Shown piece after piece: positions 41,446-64,000 of a stretch of DNA of 64,000 nucleotides; position 1 is the stretch's first letter, and each line of letters opens with the position of its first letter. Source of the stretch: Actinopolyspora alba (lineage in GTDB: Bacteria > Actinomycetota > Actinomycetes > Mycobacteriales > Pseudonocardiaceae). A program made the translations under genes and the position numbers. The stretch covers positions 248,001 to 312,000 of the forward strand of contig NZ_FOMZ01000007.1 in the NCBI RefSeq assembly GCF_900112765.1. The letters run 5' to 3'. The notes below the pieces were generated by a model. That model saw nothing but the letters and a program-made list of their open reading frames with translations, had not been told where the DNA came from and did not search any database.

Positions 41446-41715
41446 TCAGGAGCCGTCCAGCTCACTGCTGACCATATCGGCGATCCGATCCAGCGCGTCG
41501 TCGGCTCCCTCGCCATCGGCGGCGAGCACGACTTCGTCGCCGTACGCGGCTCCGAGGGTCATCAACCCCAGGATGCTGGCGGCCTCCACCGGGTCCGTCT
41601 CCTGCTTGCGGATGGTGATCTTCACCGACTGCGCGGCCGCTTCCTTGGCCAGCATGGCCGCGGGCCGTGCGTGCAGACCTACCTTGCTCGCGACGGTGAC
41701 GTGTCGTTCAGGCAT
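41446..41715 (-). CDS. ptsH: Phosphocarrier protein HPr
   Basis: 89-residue PTS phosphocarrier. The active-site His15 sits in KVGLHARPAA and the regulatory serine region reads EAASILGLMTLG. It passes phosphate from enzyme I to EIIA. Enzyme I (ptsI) is not in the window. Same strand and immediately downstream of the EIIC gene (51 nt), so the two are probably cotranscribed leftward from the central PTS promoter. Confidence 0.95.
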   Translation of the reverse strand: MPERHVTVASKVGLHARPAAMLAKEAAAQSVKITIRKQETDPVEAASILGLMTLGAAYGDEVVLAADGEGADDALDRIADMVSSELDGS

Positions 41716-41766: not shown

Positions 41767-43035
41767 TCAGGTCTTGCTCCCGCTGGTGGTGGAATCACCG
41801 GTTTCCACGGAACTGGTGCTCGCCGTTGCCGCCGAAGCGGTTTCGGTCTCGGACTGCTCGGTTTCCGCGTCTTCCTCCCTGCCCGGCGTGGGCAGCTTCA
41901 TCTTCGTGATGATGATCCGGAACAGGAAGTAGTAGATGACGGCGTAGACCAGCCCGATCGGGATCAACCACAGCGCCTTCTGCGCGATTCCGAAGTTGAG
42001 CAGGTAGTCGATGGCCCCCGCCGAGAACCCGAAACCGTGGTGGATGTCCAGCGCGTTGACCAGCGCCAGCGAGGTCCCGGTCAGAACCGCGTGCACGATC
42101 AGCAGTGGCCAGGCCACGAAGATGAACGAGAACTCCAGCGGTTCGGTGACACCGGTCAGGAAGGCGGTCAGCCCCGTGGAGAACATGATACCGCCGACCA
42201 GCTTGCGCTGGGAGGGCTTGGCCGAGTGGTAGATCGCCAGCGCGGCGGCGGGCAGCGCGAACATGAAGATGGGGAAGAACCCGGTCATGAAGGTTCCCGC
42301 GCTGGGGTCGCCCTCGAAGAACCGGTTGATGTCTCCCTGGGCGCCCTGGTACTCGCCGGTGCTGAACCACAGGATGGCGTTCGGGATGTGGTGCAGGCCG
42401 ATCGGCAGCAGCAGTCGGTTGACCACGCCGTAGATTCCGCCGCCCGCGACGACACTGCCGGTCACCGCGTCACTGAACGCCGTCAGTGCCTGGTCGAAGT
42501 AGGGGAAGACGATGCCCAGCACCACGCCGATGACCAGCATGACCACCGAGGTGATGATCGGGACGAACCGACGTCCGCCGAAGAAGCCCAGATAAGAGGG
42601 CAGCTTGATCCGATGGAAGCGCTGCCACAGTGTGGCGGCCACCAGACCGGCGATGATACCGCCGAGCACCCCGTAGGGCCCCTTGTTGTAGACGGTGTCG
42701 CCCTCGGTACCGGTCATCTGGTACAGCACCCCGGCCAGCACCAGATAGCCCACCGCACCCGCCAGGGCGGTGGAGCCGTCGGCCTTTCGCGCGAACCCGA
42801 TCGCCACGCCGATCGCGAACAGCAGCGGCAGGTTGTCGAACAACGCCCCGCCCGCGGAGCTGATGACGCTGCCGACTTCGGTCAGCCCGGGGATGGCGCC
42901 GATCAGGTCATCCTGTCCGAGTCGAAGCAGCAGTGCCGCCGCCGGCAGCACTGCGATGGGGAGCATCAGGCTTTTGCCCAGCCGCTGTAGCTGCGCGAAA
43001 GTCTTGCTGCCGCCCGAGGACGGGCTGGTGCTCAT
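41767..43035 (-). CDS. nagE: PTS EIIC permease, glucose/N-acetylglucosamine type
   Basis: 422-residue sugar-transporting membrane subunit with about ten helices. It starts like the N-acetylglucosamine permeases of Streptomyces (QRLGKSLMLPIAVLPAAALLLRLG) and has the family motifs FARKADGSTALAG, LLLPIGLHHIPN, GVTEPLEFSF and GFGFSAGAIDYLLN. EIIB is a separate gene, as in Streptomyces NagE. ATG 43035 has AGGAGG just upstream; longer starts are not supported. A Ser/Thr/Glu tail follows the last helix. The DasR-like site at 43179 supports an aminosugar substrate. Confidence 0.9.
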   Translation of the reverse strand: MSTSPSSGGSKTFAQLQRLGKSLMLPIAVLPAAALLLRLGQDDLIGAIPGLTEVGSVISSAGGALFDNLPLLFAIGVAIGFARKADGSTALAGAVGYLVLAGVLYQMTGTEGDTVYNKGPYGVLGGIIAGLVAATLWQRFHRIKLPSYLGFFGGRRFVPIITSVVMLVIGVVLGIVFPYFDQALTAFSDAVTGSVVAGGGIYGVVNRLLLPIGLHHIPNAILWFSTGEYQGAQGDINRFFEGDPSAGTFMTGFFPIFMFALPAAALAIYHSAKPSQRKLVGGIMFSTGLTAFLTGVTEPLEFSFIFVAWPLLIVHAVLTGTSLALVNALDIHHGFGFSAGAIDYLLNFGIAQKALWLIPIGLVYAVIYYFLFRIIITKMKLPTPGREEDAETEQSETETASAATASTSSVETGDSTTSGSKT

Positions 43036-43178
43036 CGAGTACCTCCTGGATACACCGGTGCGTTGGAACGGTTTCGACACGTCGCGGCCAGTTCGACCCG
43101 GTGTTCCCGGTCGGGGTGGGATCACCTGTCGCTTACTTTCCGCCGAATCACTCGTACCTTCGCCAGACTGTTGGTACG

Positions 43179-43339: not shown

Positions 43340-43576
43340 GTGGCTGATGACAAGGCTTCGGCGATCCTGGCCGCGCTGGGCGGTCAGGGCAACGTCGTCG
43401 AGATCGAGCCGTGCATTACGCGACTGCGTTGTGAGCTGGAGGACGGCGCCAAGGTCGACGAGCCCGCGTTGAAGAAGGCGGGGGCGCACGGCGTTATGCA
43501 GCAGGGCACGGTCGTCCAAGTCGTGGTGGGGCCGGAGGCGGACACCATCGCGAGCGATATCGAGGATTTGTTGTGA
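43340..43576 (+). CDS. PTS EIIB subunit, glucose family
   Basis: 78-residue stand-alone EIIB that carries phosphate on Cys25 (EPCITRLR) and gives it to the sugar during transport by EIIC. The LDDGAK-type loop and VQVVVGPEAD strand complete the fold. GTG 43340 has GGAGG about 5-9 nt upstream. It is coupled to the EIIA gene (GTGA overlap). Divergent from its EIIC partner, with the dre-like site between. Confidence 0.92.
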   Translation: MADDKASAILAALGGQGNVVEIEPCITRLRCELEDGAKVDEPALKKAGAHGVMQQGTVVQVVVGPEADTIASDIEDLL

Positions 43577-44028
43577 GTGTTCAAGTGCTCAGTCCGGTGA
43601 CGGGGTTGGTGGCCCCGATAAGCGAGGTGCCGGACCCCGTTTTCTCCCAGTCGATGGTCGGCCCCGGCGTGGCGGTCAAACCGAGCGGTGGAGAGTCGCA
43701 GGCCGTGGCGCCGGTGGAAGGCATCCTGTCGACTCTGCATCCGCACGCCTTCGTCGTCTCCACCGACGACGGCAGTGCCGTGCTGGTGCACCTGGGGATC
43801 GACACGATCGAGCTCGAAGGTGCGGGATTCGCGCTGCACGCGACCAAGGGGGAGCGTGTCACGGCAGGCAGCCCGATCGTGACCTGGAATCCCACCGAGG
43901 TCGAGCGGCAGGGCTACTCCTCGGTGTGTCCCGTAGTGGCACTCGAGGTGGGGCAGGAGGCGTTGTCGGACATGGCCGACGACGGGCGGGTCAATCACGG
44001 AGACCCCCTGTTCACCGTCGACTCGTGA
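43573..44028 (+). CDS. crr: PTS EIIA subunit, glucose family
   Basis: 151-residue EIIA(Glc)-type protein. The phosphorylated His lies in VLVHLGIDT (near residue 73) and the second active-site His in HPHAFVV (near 58). It begins VLSPVTGLVAPISEVPDPVFS as usual. It receives phosphate from HPr and passes it to EIIB. GTG 43573 overlaps the EIIB stop. With HPr and EIIC opposite, only enzyme I is missing from a complete local PTS. Confidence 0.94.
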   Translation: MSVQVLSPVTGLVAPISEVPDPVFSQSMVGPGVAVKPSGGESQAVAPVEGILSTLHPHAFVVSTDDGSAVLVHLGIDTIELEGAGFALHATKGERVTAGSPIVTWNPTEVERQGYSSVCPVVALEVGQEALSDMADDGRVNHGDPLFTVDS

Positions 44029-59730: not shown

Positions 59731-59935
59731 GGGCCTCGCCCGAAGCGATTCGCGTGGGTGACCGCGTGGTGGAAAACGGTTTGCCGTCCCGGTATCGGGA
59801 GCCGGTAGTCTCCAGCAGTCGCCCACGCCACATCGGATCTCACCAGTCGCCGTGCTCGTTCCCACCGGGGCGGGATCGGCGGTCGCCGGGCGGGGTGACA
59901 CCTTCGAACGAACGTACTCCTCGAAACGAGCGCCC

Positions 59936-60649
59936 GTGACTGTCGGTACCGAGATCGAGCTGATCGACCTGCCTCCGGGACGGGTGGTGCTCACGGATCG
60001 CCGGACGCGGCGAAGCTGGTCGGTCGATCTGGCTCCTTATAGCCTCGCCGCGACCCCGATCACGCAGGCCAGCTACGCCGAAGTCACCGGAATGCGGCCC
60101 AGCTCGGCACGTGGTGACCAGCTCCCGGTCGAAAGCGTCTCGTGGTGGGACGCCGTCCGCTGCTGCAACGCGCTGTCCCGGCTGCGGGGTCTGACTCCCG
60201 CCTACCGCTTGCACGAGCAGGATGACACCGTCGAATGGGACACCACGGCCGACGGCTACCGGCTGCCGACCGAAGCGGAGTGGGAGCACGCCTGCCGAGC
60301 GGGTACCACCGGGCCGCGGTACGGGCCGCTCGACGAGATCGCCTGGTACCGCGACAACTCCGACGCACACGTGCACGAAGTGGGCCGCAAGCAGCCGAAC
60401 CCGTGGGGCGTGCACGACACGCTCGGCAACGTCTGGGAGTGGTGCTGGGACTTCTACGATCCCGAGGTGTACGGCACCTACCGGGTGCTGCGCGGCGGCG
60501 GCTGGTTCGACGAGCACTGGAGCTGCCGCGCCTCGGTGCGCCGCCGCACCCATCCCACCAACCGGCTCGACGACATCGGTTTCCGCGTAGCTCGCGGGGC
60601 CGTGCCGGAACGCGAGAACGGTTGGACGCGCGTACCCCACCACGGGTGA
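59936..60649 (+). CDS. SUMF1/formylglycine-generating-enzyme-like protein, one catalytic Cys missing
   Basis: 237 residues from GTG 59936 (an in-frame GTG at 59852 is possible). Sulfatase-modifying-factor fold: LPVESVSWWDAV, YRLPTEAEWEHACRAG, LGNVWEWCWD, VLRGGGW and FRVARG. True formylglycine-generating enzymes have two active-site Cys about five residues apart; here Cys197 is present and the second position is Arg202. So it is probably a fold relative with another role. No sulfatase gene is nearby. It is wedged between the ABC ATPase and a copy of that gene's tail. Confidence 0.8.
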   Translation: MTVGTEIELIDLPPGRVVLTDRRTRRSWSVDLAPYSLAATPITQASYAEVTGMRPSSARGDQLPVESVSWWDAVRCCNALSRLRGLTPAYRLHEQDDTVEWDTTADGYRLPTEAEWEHACRAGTTGPRYGPLDEIAWYRDNSDAHVHEVGRKQPNPWGVHDTLGNVWEWCWDFYDPEVYGTYRVLRGGGWFDEHWSCRASVRRRTHPTNRLDDIGFRVARGAVPERENGWTRVPHHG

Positions 60650-60765: not shown

Positions 60766-61074
60766 TCAGCGTCGTTCGTCGCCCCAGCGGTCCTTGCATC
60801 CGGTGAGGAGCGTGACGCAGGCGAGTGTGAGTGGTTCGACTGCGGCCGGACCGACGAGAAGGTGGAGGGTTTCGCCGTCGTCGAGGCGTCCGAGAACGGC
60901 GGGGTGGTCGCGTAACGCGGTGCCGTCGACGGCCTGGTGGTCGGCCAGGGTGATGCGTAGGCGGGTGACGCAGTGGGTCATTGTGATGATGTTTTCGGCC
61001 CCGCCGAGCAGGGTCAGCAGCTCGTTGGCGGTGCGGGTGTAGGGGTCCGAGGTGGATTGTTCTGGTGGTGTCAT
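60766..61074 (-). CDS. Stand-alone PTS EIIB-like protein
   Basis: 102 residues with the EIIB fold of the glucose family: LLTLLGGAENIITMTHCVTRLRITL holds the phospho-cysteine Cys35, then HLLVGPAAVEPL. There is no EIIC, EIIA or HPr gene nearby. ATG 61074 overlaps the stop of the upstream 130-residue gene (ATGA). It might carry phosphate to another protein rather than to sugar, but that is inference. It is clearly distinct from the canonical EIIB at 43340. Confidence 0.8.
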   Translation of the reverse strand: MTPPEQSTSDPYTRTANELLTLLGGAENIITMTHCVTRLRITLADHQAVDGTALRDHPAVLGRLDDGETLHLLVGPAAVEPLTLACVTLLTGCKDRWGDERR

Positions 61075-61463
61075 CGGGCTCCCCAGAGGTAGCGGGGCAC
61101 GTCCATGTCGGCGTAGGCGACCTGGTCGGCCTCGTTCCAGTACGCCTTGGCGAGTACGTGGGCGATCAGGGATCGCAGCCGTAGCAGGGAGTCCAGCCAC
61201 GTGCCGGGGTACTGCCAGTGCTGCCATAGAGCGGGGTCGGTGGTGGCGAGGTGGTCCAGGGTGGTGTCGAGGTCGCGGCGCCAGCGGTGTAGTTCGGTGA
61301 AGGTCACCGTGGTGTGCCTGTGCTGGGTGGCGTCGATGAGGTGTTCGCGGATCGCTGTGGCGGTCTGTCGGGCGGGGGCGCTCCAGGCTGTCGGGGTGTG
61401 TGGGTCAGGGTCGTTGGCCAAGGTCGCCAGGAGGGTGCGTGCGGTCGCGGTGTCGTCCTCCAT
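61071..61463 (-). CDS. Uncharacterised 130-residue protein
   Basis: 130 residues, His- and Thr-rich, predicted mostly helical (LHRWRRDLDTTLDHLATTD, TWLDSLLRLRSLIAHVLAKAYW), ending YADMDVPRYLWGAR. I do not recognise the family. No membrane segment or signal. ATG 61463 has AAAGGA about 7 nt upstream. It overlaps the end of the P-loop kinase gene by 59 nt in another frame and its stop overlaps the EIIB start. Tight coupling suggests the proteins act together. Confidence 0.72.
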   Translation of the reverse strand: MEDDTATARTLLATLANDPDPHTPTAWSAPARQTATAIREHLIDATQHRHTTVTFTELHRWRRDLDTTLDHLATTDPALWQHWQYPGTWLDSLLRLRSLIAHVLAKAYWNEADQVAYADMDVPRYLWGAR

Positions 61464-62226
61464 CGAGGTTCCTTTCTACATGGTCGGTGATCTCGGTGGC
61501 GCTGGTCAGGCAGTACACGGGCCCGCCGTGGGGTTGGTGGTGCAGGGCGCGGCTGAACAGTTGTGTGCGTCCGTGCGGGCTGGTCACGCTCGTCGAGCGC
61601 GGTCGGCCGCAGTCGCCGCCGCAGGCCAGGTCGGCGTTCGACACGGCCGGTGTGGTCGTCGAGGCGGGCAACAGGGTGGCCACGGTGGCGGTCAGGTCGG
61701 TGTCGGTGACCTGGTGGTGCTGCCAGCTGGGCCCGGGGCTGATCCACCGGGTGAGCTCGCGGAAGAACTCGCCGTAGGCGGTCAGAAAGTTCGTGTCGTA
61801 CCAGAGGCGATAGCGGGGATCGTCGGCTCGGTCGCGGCGGCGGTGTCGTGACTCGTCGGGTTCCAGGTGCAGGATCAGCACGGTGTCGTCGTGGTGGCGC
61901 TGGTCGAGGGCGAGCTCGCGGCTGCGGGTCAATGCGAGATGGAAGTCGTGCCACTGGCCGGTGAGTCGGGCCAGGGCGTAGCGGTAGGCCAGCACGCCGA
62001 GGTGGCAGCGGTCGGAGGCGATCACCCGCTCCGGACTGTGCGTGTGCAGCCGGGCGGTCTCGGTGGTGCGCGCGTGGTCCTCGGCCAACAGGTGCCGCAG
62101 CACGGTCTCGTCATCGCCCTCGGCCGGTGGGCGGGCTTCGGGAAAGACCACGGCCTGCCACTGGGTGAGCAGTGTTCCGAGGAGCGTGGTTTTGCCCGCC
62201 CCGGGCATTCCGTCGAGGATCAGCAC
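61405..62226 (-). CDS. P-loop kinase-like NTPase (dTMP-kinase-like fold)
   Basis: 273 residues from GTG 62226. Walker A is GMPGAGKT (6-13), then a thymidylate-kinase-like DR motif (ASDRCHLG) and an Arg-rich lid (SRHRRRDRADD). The C-terminal 80 residues contain paired Cys (ACGGDCGRP) and a His-rich tail. The phosphoryl acceptor is unknown. It starts 2 nt beyond the APH stop, so the genes are coupled. Longer frames overlap the APH gene and are rejected. Confidence 0.75.
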   Translation of the reverse strand: MLILDGMPGAGKTTLLGTLLTQWQAVVFPEARPPAEGDDETVLRHLLAEDHARTTETARLHTHSPERVIASDRCHLGVLAYRYALARLTGQWHDFHLALTRSRELALDQRHHDDTVLILHLEPDESRHRRRDRADDPRYRLWYDTNFLTAYGEFFRELTRWISPGPSWQHHQVTDTDLTATVATLLPASTTTPAVSNADLACGGDCGRPRSTSVTSPHGRTQLFSRALHHQPHGGPVYCLTSATEITDHVERNLDGGRHRDRTHPPGDLGQRP

Positions 62227-62227
62227 G

Positions 62228-63142
62228 TCACAGCACCTGTCCGGTGTCGTGCAGGCTCGCCAGCAGCCACGGGACCAGGGCGGTGACCTGTTCGGCGAGT
62301 TCGGGGTCGAGGTCGATGGCCCATTGCAGGATCCAGCGGGCGCGCAGGGCCAGGTGGTAGGCGAGGTGGTCACCGCTGACCGGGGCGGCGGTGGGGATCC
62401 AGCGGCGGCGCTCGGTGTCGTAGGCGGCCAGCAGCACGCGCCGGTCGTGCGTGCCGAGCAGGCTCTCGTGCAGCACCAGCGTGCCGAGGTCCTCGTAGCG
62501 GCAGCCGATGCCGGAGCCCTCGAAGTCGATGACGCCGGGGTGCTCGCCGTCGGCGAGCAGGATGTTGCGGCGGGAGAAGTCCCCGTGCACGAATCCGCGC
62601 TCGCGGGTGCAGCGCGTCTCGGCCGCCGGTGTCGCCTCGGCCAGTGCGGTGTCGAGTTGTGCCCCGGCCCGGTGGGTGGGGCTGGTGCCGTCCGGCAGCT
62701 CACGCAGTCGTCGGCGGTGTTCGGGCATTGCCGCGAGGAGCTCACCGGGCAGGCTGTGCAGCTGGGCGGCGACTTGGCCGAGCGTCGTGGTCGCCTCGTG
62801 CGGAGACGGTTGGGTGCCGTTCAATCGGGTGGTTGCCAGCCAGGGCAGCTGTCCGGCCTGTTCGTCGTGGGCCAGCATGTCGGGCACGCGTAGTTCGGGG
62901 GCGTGGGCGGCCGCGCGCAGCCCGGCGGCCTCACGGTGGCACCGTTCCTGCCCCCGGTGGGTGTAGACCTTCAACACCGCGTGCTCGGCCAGGAAGATCG
63001 CGGAGCGTCCGCCGTAGCCGACCAAGGCGTGGGAGGCGAATGTCGTGCCTACGGCCGCGGTGGCGGCGAGTCGCGCACTATCGATGGCTTCGGCGAGCTC
63101 GCTGCTGACTTCCTCGTCGTTGCTGGTGGTGTCGTCGTCCAT
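62228..63142 (-). CDS. APH-family phosphotransferase
   Basis: 304 residues with an aminoglycoside-phosphotransferase/choline-kinase fold: lysine strand AVLKVYTH, catalytic loop FVHGDFSRRNILL and metal-binding VIDFEGSGIG. The Brenner motif is complete, unlike the protein at 26576. The substrate is unknown, possibly a sugar or alcohol made by the upstream glycosyltransferase. ATG 63142 has AAGGA 7 nt upstream, overlapping the glycosyltransferase stop. Confidence 0.85.
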   Translation of the reverse strand: MDDDTTSNDEEVSSELAEAIDSARLAATAAVGTTFASHALVGYGGRSAIFLAEHAVLKVYTHRGQERCHREAAGLRAAAHAPELRVPDMLAHDEQAGQLPWLATTRLNGTQPSPHEATTTLGQVAAQLHSLPGELLAAMPEHRRRLRELPDGTSPTHRAGAQLDTALAEATPAAETRCTRERGFVHGDFSRRNILLADGEHPGVIDFEGSGIGCRYEDLGTLVLHESLLGTHDRRVLLAAYDTERRRWIPTAAPVSGDHLAYHLALRARWILQWAIDLDPELAEQVTALVPWLLASLHDTGQVL

Positions 63143-63151
63143 GTCGGATCC

Positions 63152-64000
63152 TTATTCGGGAGCATGCGTGCGAGAAGTTGTGTGGCCGCGCCATTCCCGC
63201 AGCCAGTACGGCGGCTCGGCAGCCAAGGCCCGTGCCTCGGCGTCGGGAACGCTGCCGCGTGTACCGGCGCGGTGCTGCTCGAGGATGGCGCTGTAGGCCG
63301 CGTGTGCGGCCCGCGCCTGGGCCGACCAGGAGTAGCGCTGTTCGACCAGGTGCCGTGCGCGTCTGCCCAGACGGTGGCGGCGCACCTCGTCGCCCAGCAG
63401 CGCGGTCACGTGTCCGGGCAGCTCGGCCAGGTCGGCCTCGACTGCCCACTGCTCGGTCTCGGCGAACCCGACGAACGCCTCGGCCGTGCCGACCACGGGC
63501 AGCCCGGCGGCGCAATAGTCGAGGACTTTGAGCTTCATGCCCCCGCCGGTCTCCAGCGGAGCGACGGCCACGGTCGCACTGTCCAACGCCGAACGCAGGT
63601 CGCGCACCGGGCCGCGCAGCCGCACACGGTCAGCGAGTTCCCGCAGCGAAGCGGGATAGCGGCCGATCACCTCGATCACCGTCCCGGGAGGCAGGCTCGG
63701 TGCGAGCACCTCGTGCAACCACCGCATCGCACGGCGGTTCGGCTCGTAATAGCCGTTGCCGACGAACACCACCCGCGACTCGGCACTCGACCGCGACCTC
63801 GGGGCAGGCCCGGGGTCGACTCCGCAGGGCACCACGTGCACCGCAGTGGTGCCGAGTCGGCGCGCGGTCGCGGCATCGCGATCGGTGAACGTGATCACAC
63901 CGTCGGCGGCGGCCACGGCGGCGGTTTGCAGCACCGCCGCGGTGTCCTGCCCCGCATCGCCGAGCGAACGCAACAGGGCGGCCTCATCGTCGTGCATCTC
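63152..64000 (-). CDS. GT4-family glycosyltransferase, 3' part (gene continues past the window end)
   Basis: 283 codons visible; the frame is open to the window edge, so the N-terminal Rossmann domain is outside. The visible part has the GT4 C-terminal features: ADGVITFTDRDAATARRLG, VVPCGVDPG, VVFVGNGYYEPNRRAM and the nucleotide-sugar loop ETGGGMKLKVLDYCAAGLPVVGT with the EX7E-like glutamate region. It transfers a sugar from a nucleotide donor; acceptor unknown. It is first of the coupled leftward cassette. Confidence 0.85.
   Translation of the reverse strand, partial: EMHDDEAALLRSLGDAGQDTAAVLQTAAVAAADGVITFTDRDAATARRLGTTAVHVVPCGVDPGPAPRSRSSAESRVVFVGNGYYEPNRRAMRWLHEVLAPSLPPGTVIEVIGRYPASLRELADRVRLRGPVRDLRSALDSATVAVAPLETGGGMKLKVLDYCAAGLPVVGTAEAFVGFAETEQWAVEADLAELPGHVTALLGDEVRRHRLGRRARHLVEQRYSWSAQARAAHAAYSAILEQHRAGTRGSVPDAEARALAAEPPYWLREWRGHTTSRTHAPE

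Follow-up and report, generated by a model that had tools for sequence, protein, structure and literature searches.

Why should an operon of glycosyltransferase and kinase genes end with a free-standing subunit of the sugar phosphotransferase system (PTS)? The question is raised by a locus of Actinopolyspora alba, at the right edge of a 64,000-nucleotide stretch referred to here as the window (positions 248001-312000 of contig C19, NZ_FOMZ01000007.1, in a 5.24 Mb draft genome); because the operon lies at this edge, the rest of the contig was added to the analysis. Its last five genes encode a GT4 glycosyltransferase, an APH-type kinase, a P-loop kinase, a 130-residue protein that we call P130, and the PTS subunit, an orphan EIIB. 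We found that this gene set is a conserved unit, and regard the locus as a variant among the putative glycoside-type gene clusters of actinomycetes, one in which a PTS subunit is a fixed part.

The initial annotation had described five tightly coupled genes on the minus strand, and their coordinates bear this out. By our count 9 nt separate the GT4 stop codon from the ATG of the APH gene, and 1 nt separates APH from the P-loop gene; the P-loop and P130 genes overlap by 59 nt, and P130 and EIIB share a 4-nt ATGA overlap. A search of the operon region for sigma-70-like promoters gave none. The window truncates GT4, whose full product has 410 aa (L004:5152-6384) with its start codon 384 nt past the edge. 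The remainder of the operon, sought beyond position 64000, continues upstream with a GT2 glycosyltransferase gene overlapping GT4 by 4 nt, preceded in turn by open reading frames (ORFs) of 120 aa, 82 aa (with a CxxC motif) and 133 aa, and by a divergent XRE/DUF5753 regulator akin to the Sco1979 family, scoring under the cut-off of that model.

Conservation of the gene set was detected in other genomes. A peptide-pattern scan of an 84,980-species collection with the alignment of the P-loop protein, a type of scan that can miss relatives, returned six loci, in A. xinjiangensis, Prauserella halophila, Streptomyces odonnellii, Streptomyces sp. 8L (two contigs) and Streptomyces sp. NRRL F-5126. A genus mate, G997, carries a further copy at the same site as the window, with six core proteins 94.6-100% identical. 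Together with the window's own, this makes eight intact loci from seven genomes (three Actinopolyspora, P. halophila and three Streptomyces), and all eight keep both the order GT4-APH-P-loop-P130-EIIB and the 4-nt overlap between P130 and EIIB. Close relatives of the P-loop protein, down to 39% identity, occur at ten loci, the other two being broken remnants (G104 and G983). Since the same order is common to eight of the ten and the remaining two are remnants, chance adjacency can be rejected. The initial annotation had made co-occurrence elsewhere a test of its proposal, and the families do co-occur, in three genera.

Among the intact loci, GT4 and APH form a single ORF in five of the eight, namely the Prauserella and the four Streptomyces loci. 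GT2 is present in seven; the contig of the eighth, L024, begins within a carbamoyltransferase gene, so that the presence of GT2 cannot be judged there. Three Streptomyces loci (L021-L023) have an O-carbamoyltransferase between GT2 and GT4-APH, accompanied by genes for an XRE regulator, a flavoprotein and an RsbW-like ATPase and by a second, convergent APH gene, all identified by Pfam in L021 and by blastp in the others. Of these extras, blastp revealed the carbamoyltransferase and the additional APH in L024. No match to the carbamoyltransferase came from the Actinopolyspora or Prauserella loci. Ratios of nonsynonymous to synonymous substitution (dN/dS) lay between 0.17 and 0.57 in 27 of 29 gene comparisons made over five pairs, the exceptions being P130 and EIIB of the window compared with A. 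xinjiangensis. In this pair P130 has very few changes, and the EIIB differences lie mostly past residue 48.

The orphan EIIB is a clear member of its family (PF00367, 51.8 bits, above the Pfam cut-off of 27). Its phospho-acceptor cysteine and the surrounding C-x-T-R-L-R are kept in the G104 remnant as well as at all eight intact loci, and the loop aligns with the equivalent stretch of E. coli IIB-Glc and of another solved IIB. Identity to the window's EIIB drops to 54% among the intact loci, and the C-terminal part is divergent. Arginines of this loop reportedly matter in EIIB proteins for sugar phosphorylation (Lanz and Erni 1998).

Where did this subunit come from? The best NCBIfam matches of the orphan are IIBC transporters, sucrose first, none of them near its cut-off, with only the B part present. 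A profile of the orphans matched 34 of 394 genomes of the class at E≤1e-12. Among the 34 matches beyond the window's own, 33 fall in frames of 487-1298 aa, and all nine of the long frames that were scanned carry EIIC behind EIIB; the last is in a 95-aa frame. The NagF-like EIIB of the host did not reach E≤1e-12 with the same profile. Because all but one of the matches fall in long frames and the host's own free-standing EIIB remains below that level, the orphan most likely goes back to the B part of an EIIBC permease. A tree of 39 EIIB rows resolved three groups: the eight orphans (support 94/80), NagF-like proteins (100/99) and EIIBC B domains (52/84; a group defined by ORF length, of whose 24 rows the nine scanned all carry EIIC). 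Six duplicate or relic rows were excluded from it, and loci in which our script found no C-x-T-R-L (including L031, L069, L077, L080, L081, L087 and L089) gave no row. The bootstrap is not settled, and nearness to EIIBC is read from branch lengths and profile scores, which favour it over an origin from the host NagF-like EIIB. The orphan shares with the glucose/sucrose-family EIIBC B domain its fold family, the C-x-T-R-L-R loop and a PF00358-type EIIA in the host, but differs in being free-standing, in an operon without EIIC, and fixed beside P130 among glycosyltransferases and kinases.

The initial annotation had noted no EIIC, EIIA or HPr beside the EIIB. This holds for the immediate neighbours, but a full HPr-EIIC-EIIB-EIIA set of the glucose family lies elsewhere in the window, at a distance of 17-19 kb. 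The EIIB of this set is NagF-like and has a separate EIIC. Both host EIIBs are free-standing; the NagF-like one sits with EIIC and EIIA and belongs to a separate group of the tree. Two EIIBs and one EIIC were counted in the draft genome. No EIIC is fused or adjacent to the orphan or present elsewhere in its operon, and the genome's only EIIC (PF02378) adjoins its own EIIB, so that the pairing with a distant EIIC that would have made the orphan an ordinary transporter part was not found; sharing of that EIIC may occur. Elsewhere, PF02378 EIICs number one each in A. xinjiangensis, G997 and S. odonnellii, two in P. halophila and three in NRRL F-5126. Of the three in NRRL F-5126, two neighbour a NagF-like EIIB and the third shares its frame with an EIIB; for the second EIIC of P. 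halophila, in a 666-aa frame, no PF00367 match was found on its contig. EIIA (PF00358) was detected in all eight genomes searched (five carriers of the cassette, one with a relic and two non-carriers), as was a PF02896 protein of the size of EI (frames of 546-588 aa), encoded on contig C41 in the window's genome.

P130, the constant partner of the orphan EIIB, was correctly described as unrecognised. It has no NCBIfam match at E 0.1 and a single Pfam match under cut-off (SIP, E 0.0056). Its AF2 model is helical (pLDDT 83), and a fold search found no solved relative at E≤0.001. An alignment of seven rows has 50 invariant columns, and the C-terminal part, ending RYLWGAR, is strongly kept. We do not claim P130 as a DinB/MDMPI-type protein: the S. 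odonnellii copy gave one weak match (PF11716, E 0.0048, under cut-off), and the fold search gave nothing at E≤0.001.

The protein annotated as a P-loop kinase is indeed a P-loop protein, which can now be refined to thymidylate-kinase-like. In family scans it gave a weak AAA_28 match only, whereas its core of ∼190 residues resembles thymidylate kinase (probability 1.00 and TMq 0.40 for the best Foldseek match; the highest TMq among the 50 matches listed is 0.52). Against the NCBIfam dTMP kinase equivalog it scored 15.6 bits, below the cut-off of 83.25. Residues 190-273 form a low-confidence tail whose Cys and His are conserved between the Actinopolyspora and Prauserella copies; Streptomyces copies are without it. 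The APH-type kinase (PF01636, 86.2 bits) scored 44.8 bits against the aminoglycoside APH(3') equivalog, whose cut-off is 205. The catalytic motifs of APH enzymes, HGDxxxxN and ID-x-E-G, are both found: HGDxSxRN in all seven aligned rows, and IDFEG in six, the seventh having IDLEG. For GT2, the best NCBIfam model is the mycofactocin glycosyltransferase MftF, at 85.8 bits under an equivalog cut-off of 280.

Is the cassette a stable inheritance of these genera? Its distribution indicates otherwise. Searching with the single P130 sequence gave matches in 5 of 200 genomes of the order, one of them a remnant and one, in G162, weak and dropped before the counts (E 3.7e-4, an internal stop, no operon protein in the surrounding 20 kb). 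Profiles of P130 matched 1 of 392 Streptomyces genomes and 1 of 396 across the phylum, in each case the genome on which the search was centred (S. odonnellii and the window's own). The P-loop profile matched 10 of 200 genomes of the family, five near full length (the window's own, G062, G997, G037 and G104), the others being one short remnant (G983) and four weak or distant matches; those in G968, G915, G917 and G1012 and a second one in G997 were left out of the counts, in which G104 and G983 stand as remnants. Neither P130 nor the P-loop protein matched in 72,556 plasmid records, and the P-loop protein had no match in viral contigs.

Empty sites were found as well. In G180, with flanks 97-98% identical, alignment with the window breaks off at position 60624 and resumes at 67267, inside the XRE gene beyond the window, with 42 bases between. 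The corresponding jump in G968 goes from 60624 to 69191, again with 42 intervening bases. Both jumps start within the last 26 bases of an FGE-sulfatase-domain gene, which occupies 59852-60649 and is convergent with the cassette. G1009 is also without the cassette, from 58667. At the corresponding site A. xinjiangensis retains a stretch that matches part of APH at 80% identity, and its whole cassette lies elsewhere. The G104 remnant has P130 running into EIIB in one ORF, with no GT2 or GT4 found, and the G983 remnant is reduced to APH and a 56-residue piece of the P-loop protein. Taken together, these findings indicate that the cassette, sporadic as it is, has been repeatedly gained and lost and is probably distributed horizontally. 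Next to the broken G104 cassette (L013:7837-13072), three CRISPR-like repeats (spacing 61 and 121) lie upstream, and genes for a radical SAM protein and a PLP decarboxylase downstream.

Related clusters place the operon in a wider setting. Three loci (L062, L063 and L064) encode a GT2, a thymidylate-kinase-like protein (30-33% identity) and a carbamoyltransferase (56-57%) by blastp, and also an AdoMet synthase and a Gfo/Idh protein (by Pfam in L062, by eye in L063 and L064) and a NUDIX-like ORF (by eye). EIIB, P130, GT4 and APH were not found in them at E≤1e-4, the L063 and L064 contigs being only 12.1 and 9.2 kb long, so that genes may lie off their ends. This comparison suggests that EIIB, P130, GT4 and APH may form a single module that a wider cluster family has acquired or lost. 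The SjGlcNK glucosamine kinase clusters of Actinobacteria similarly pair a sugar kinase, of maltokinase-like type, with a glycosyltransferase in a predicted biosynthetic setting; they have a GT1-like glycosyltransferase and an SIS isomerase instead of GT2 and GT4, and the accessible part of the source names no EIIB, P130 or thymidylate-kinase-like protein (PMC6520443). We found no description of an EIIB within such a glycosyltransferase/kinase cluster among the open-licence papers listed, a search that leaves subscription journals mostly uncovered.

How might these proteins act together? We tentatively favour, as the best of several readings none of which is probable by itself, a sporadic biosynthesis-type operon for a glycoside-phosphate pathway. 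GT2 and GT4 would build a small glycoside, whose sugar or nucleoside parts would be phosphorylated by the APH kinase, coupled or fused to GT4, and by the thymidylate-kinase-like P-loop kinase; in Streptomyces, the carbamoyltransferase would add a carbamoyl group. The orphan EIIB, as an EIIBC B domain that lost its membrane domain, would be phosphorylated on its cysteine by the EI-HPr-EIIA chain of the host, with EIIA as the presumed direct donor. In a putative complex with its fixed partner P130, it would then pass the phosphoryl group derived from phosphoenolpyruvate (PEP) to one of the pathway's sugar intermediates instead of the sugar bound by EIIC. The product would be a phosphorylated glycoside. 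The stronger formulation, in which a permease-freed EIIB serves biosynthesis as a soluble PEP-driven phosphoryl donor and P130 plays the role of EIIC in a PTS-coupled natural-product pathway, we regard as possible but doubtful.

The initial annotation had left the orphan as either phosphate carrier or sensor. Circumstantial evidence (the kept motif and the host EIIA, HPr and EI-sized protein) speaks for both. If the EIIB acts with P130, a donor to a sugar intermediate would be its likeliest role, and a sensor nearly as likely. A sensor of PTS status, charged by EIIA, would through its phosphorylation state switch P130, the kinases or the glycosyltransferases on or off and tie production to carbon supply, and the product would be without phosphate. 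Such a role, which we consider possible if somewhat unlikely, is consistent with the small, helical, partner-like P130 and with the host PTS, and Mlc is said to interact with IIBGlc. Among the family matches of the operon proteins scanned, however, is no PRD-type or other known PTS-responsive regulator, and the loop arginines, which a pure sensor may not need, are fully kept. Regulatory phosphocysteines of an EIIB and of a regulator have been described (PMC6429109).

The same invariance weighs on another reading, in which only the fold of EIIB was put to new use: without phosphotransfer or catalysis, it would bind P130 and the GT4-APH enzyme or serve them as a scaffold. An operon without an EIIC partner in a genome with one EIIC, the divergent C-terminal part and a dN/dS near 1 in one pair would fit it, but the cysteine and C-x-T-R-L-R are unchanged at every intact locus in spite of overall identities down to 54%, and we judge it unlikely. 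An ordinary sugar transporter was rejected as the principal reading because the only EIIC of the genome already has its own EIIB. Its weaker form, a spare subunit for that EIIC hitchhiking in the operon, could be argued from the EIIC, EIIA and HPr in the same window; it is highly improbable, as that EIIC has an EIIB of its own nearby and the orphan groups apart from the host EIIB in the tree and travels with P130 across genera. Finally, a conflict or self-resistance module, in which APH and the P-loop kinase inactivate a compound, would suit the sporadic distribution and empty sites, the XRE regulators adjoining the cassette and the APH folds known in resistance. PADLOC models matched 0 of 10 operon proteins at E≤0.01, and two glycosyltransferases with the Streptomyces carbamoyltransferase and flavoprotein point instead to synthesis, leaving this explanation quite unlikely.

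Several points weigh against the pathway that we favour. Phosphorylation of the orphan EIIB and the nature of the product are both predictions from sequence, and we know of no soluble EIIB established as donating to a substrate other than one bound by EIIC. No scaffold-making enzyme was recognised among the operon genes. None of the three related GT2/thymidylate-kinase-like/carbamoyltransferase loci, two of which lie on short contigs, shows an EIIB or P130. Strong constraint is not visible in the A. xinjiangensis pair, with dN/dS of 0.98 for EIIB and 0.87 for P130. The tree itself places neither the EIIBC nor the NagF-like group nearer the orphans, and a short EIIB does exist outside any cassette: the 95-aa frame mentioned above (G467, L122:7199-7486) is free-standing, 36% identical to the orphan, with no cassette protein in the 15 kb fetched. 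The PTS genes are permissive only, as they are also present in the two cassette-free genomes, and PF02896 is not specific to EI, matching in 14 of 14 control genomes.

Should the orphan EIIB be charged and take part in the pathway, the relay that supplies phosphate for sugar import would have a second use, feeding or gating a biosynthetic route. We found no such use of the PTS described among the open-licence papers listed. P130, for which no relative of known function was found, would then also gain a function. If not, the locus is still a rare cluster of glycoside type, found in Streptomyces and in halophilic actinomycetes. It combines two glycosyltransferases with two kinases that differ in fold, one of its forms has a carbamoyltransferase as well, and it is as such a target for compound discovery.

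Table 1. Genes of the cassette and of the host PTS set, in window coordinates
Feature	Position	Strand	Description	Support
Orphan EIIB	60766..61074	-	102 aa, C-x-T-R-L-R phospho-Cys loop, final operon gene	PF00367 E 5.2e-14
P130	61071..61463	-	130-aa helical protein, no known family, 4-nt overlap with EIIB	
P-loop kinase, thymidylate-kinase-like	61405..62226	-	GTG start, 273 aa	Foldseek to thymidylate kinases, best E 3.6e-6
APH-type kinase	62228..63142	-		PF01636 E 3.8e-24
GT4 glycosyltransferase	63152..64000	-	C-terminal part in window	PF13692 E 7.8e-16
Host HPr	41446..41715	-		PF00381 E 1.2e-26
Host EIIC	41767..43125	-	sole PF02378 match in genome	
Host second EIIB, NagF-like	43340..43576	+	outside cassette	PF00367 E 2.3e-13
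Host EIIA	43573..44028	+	proposed (putative) phosphoryl donor to orphan EIIB	PF00358 E 3.1e-39

Other genes near the cassettes were recorded as neighbours. In A. xinjiangensis, genes for an FxLD methyltransferase, a LanC-like protein and a lantibiotic dehydratase lie 0.4-8.6 kb downstream of the cassette (L011:10979-19196). Since no such genes were recognised beside the window's cassette or, by eye only, in P. halophila, we treated this set, of the type that makes ribosomally synthesized and post-translationally modified peptides (RiPPs), as a mere neighbour and set a RiPP link aside. The 120-aa ORF upstream of GT2 (L004:7284-7646) has, in 3 of 3 orthologues, a weak match, far under cut-off, to the C-terminal part of the RiPP methyltransferase model TIGR04188. 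Farther along the contig, L004:13920-14975 holds an IS605 OrfB/TnpB-like ORF, and nearby genes resemble efp and nusB by eye.

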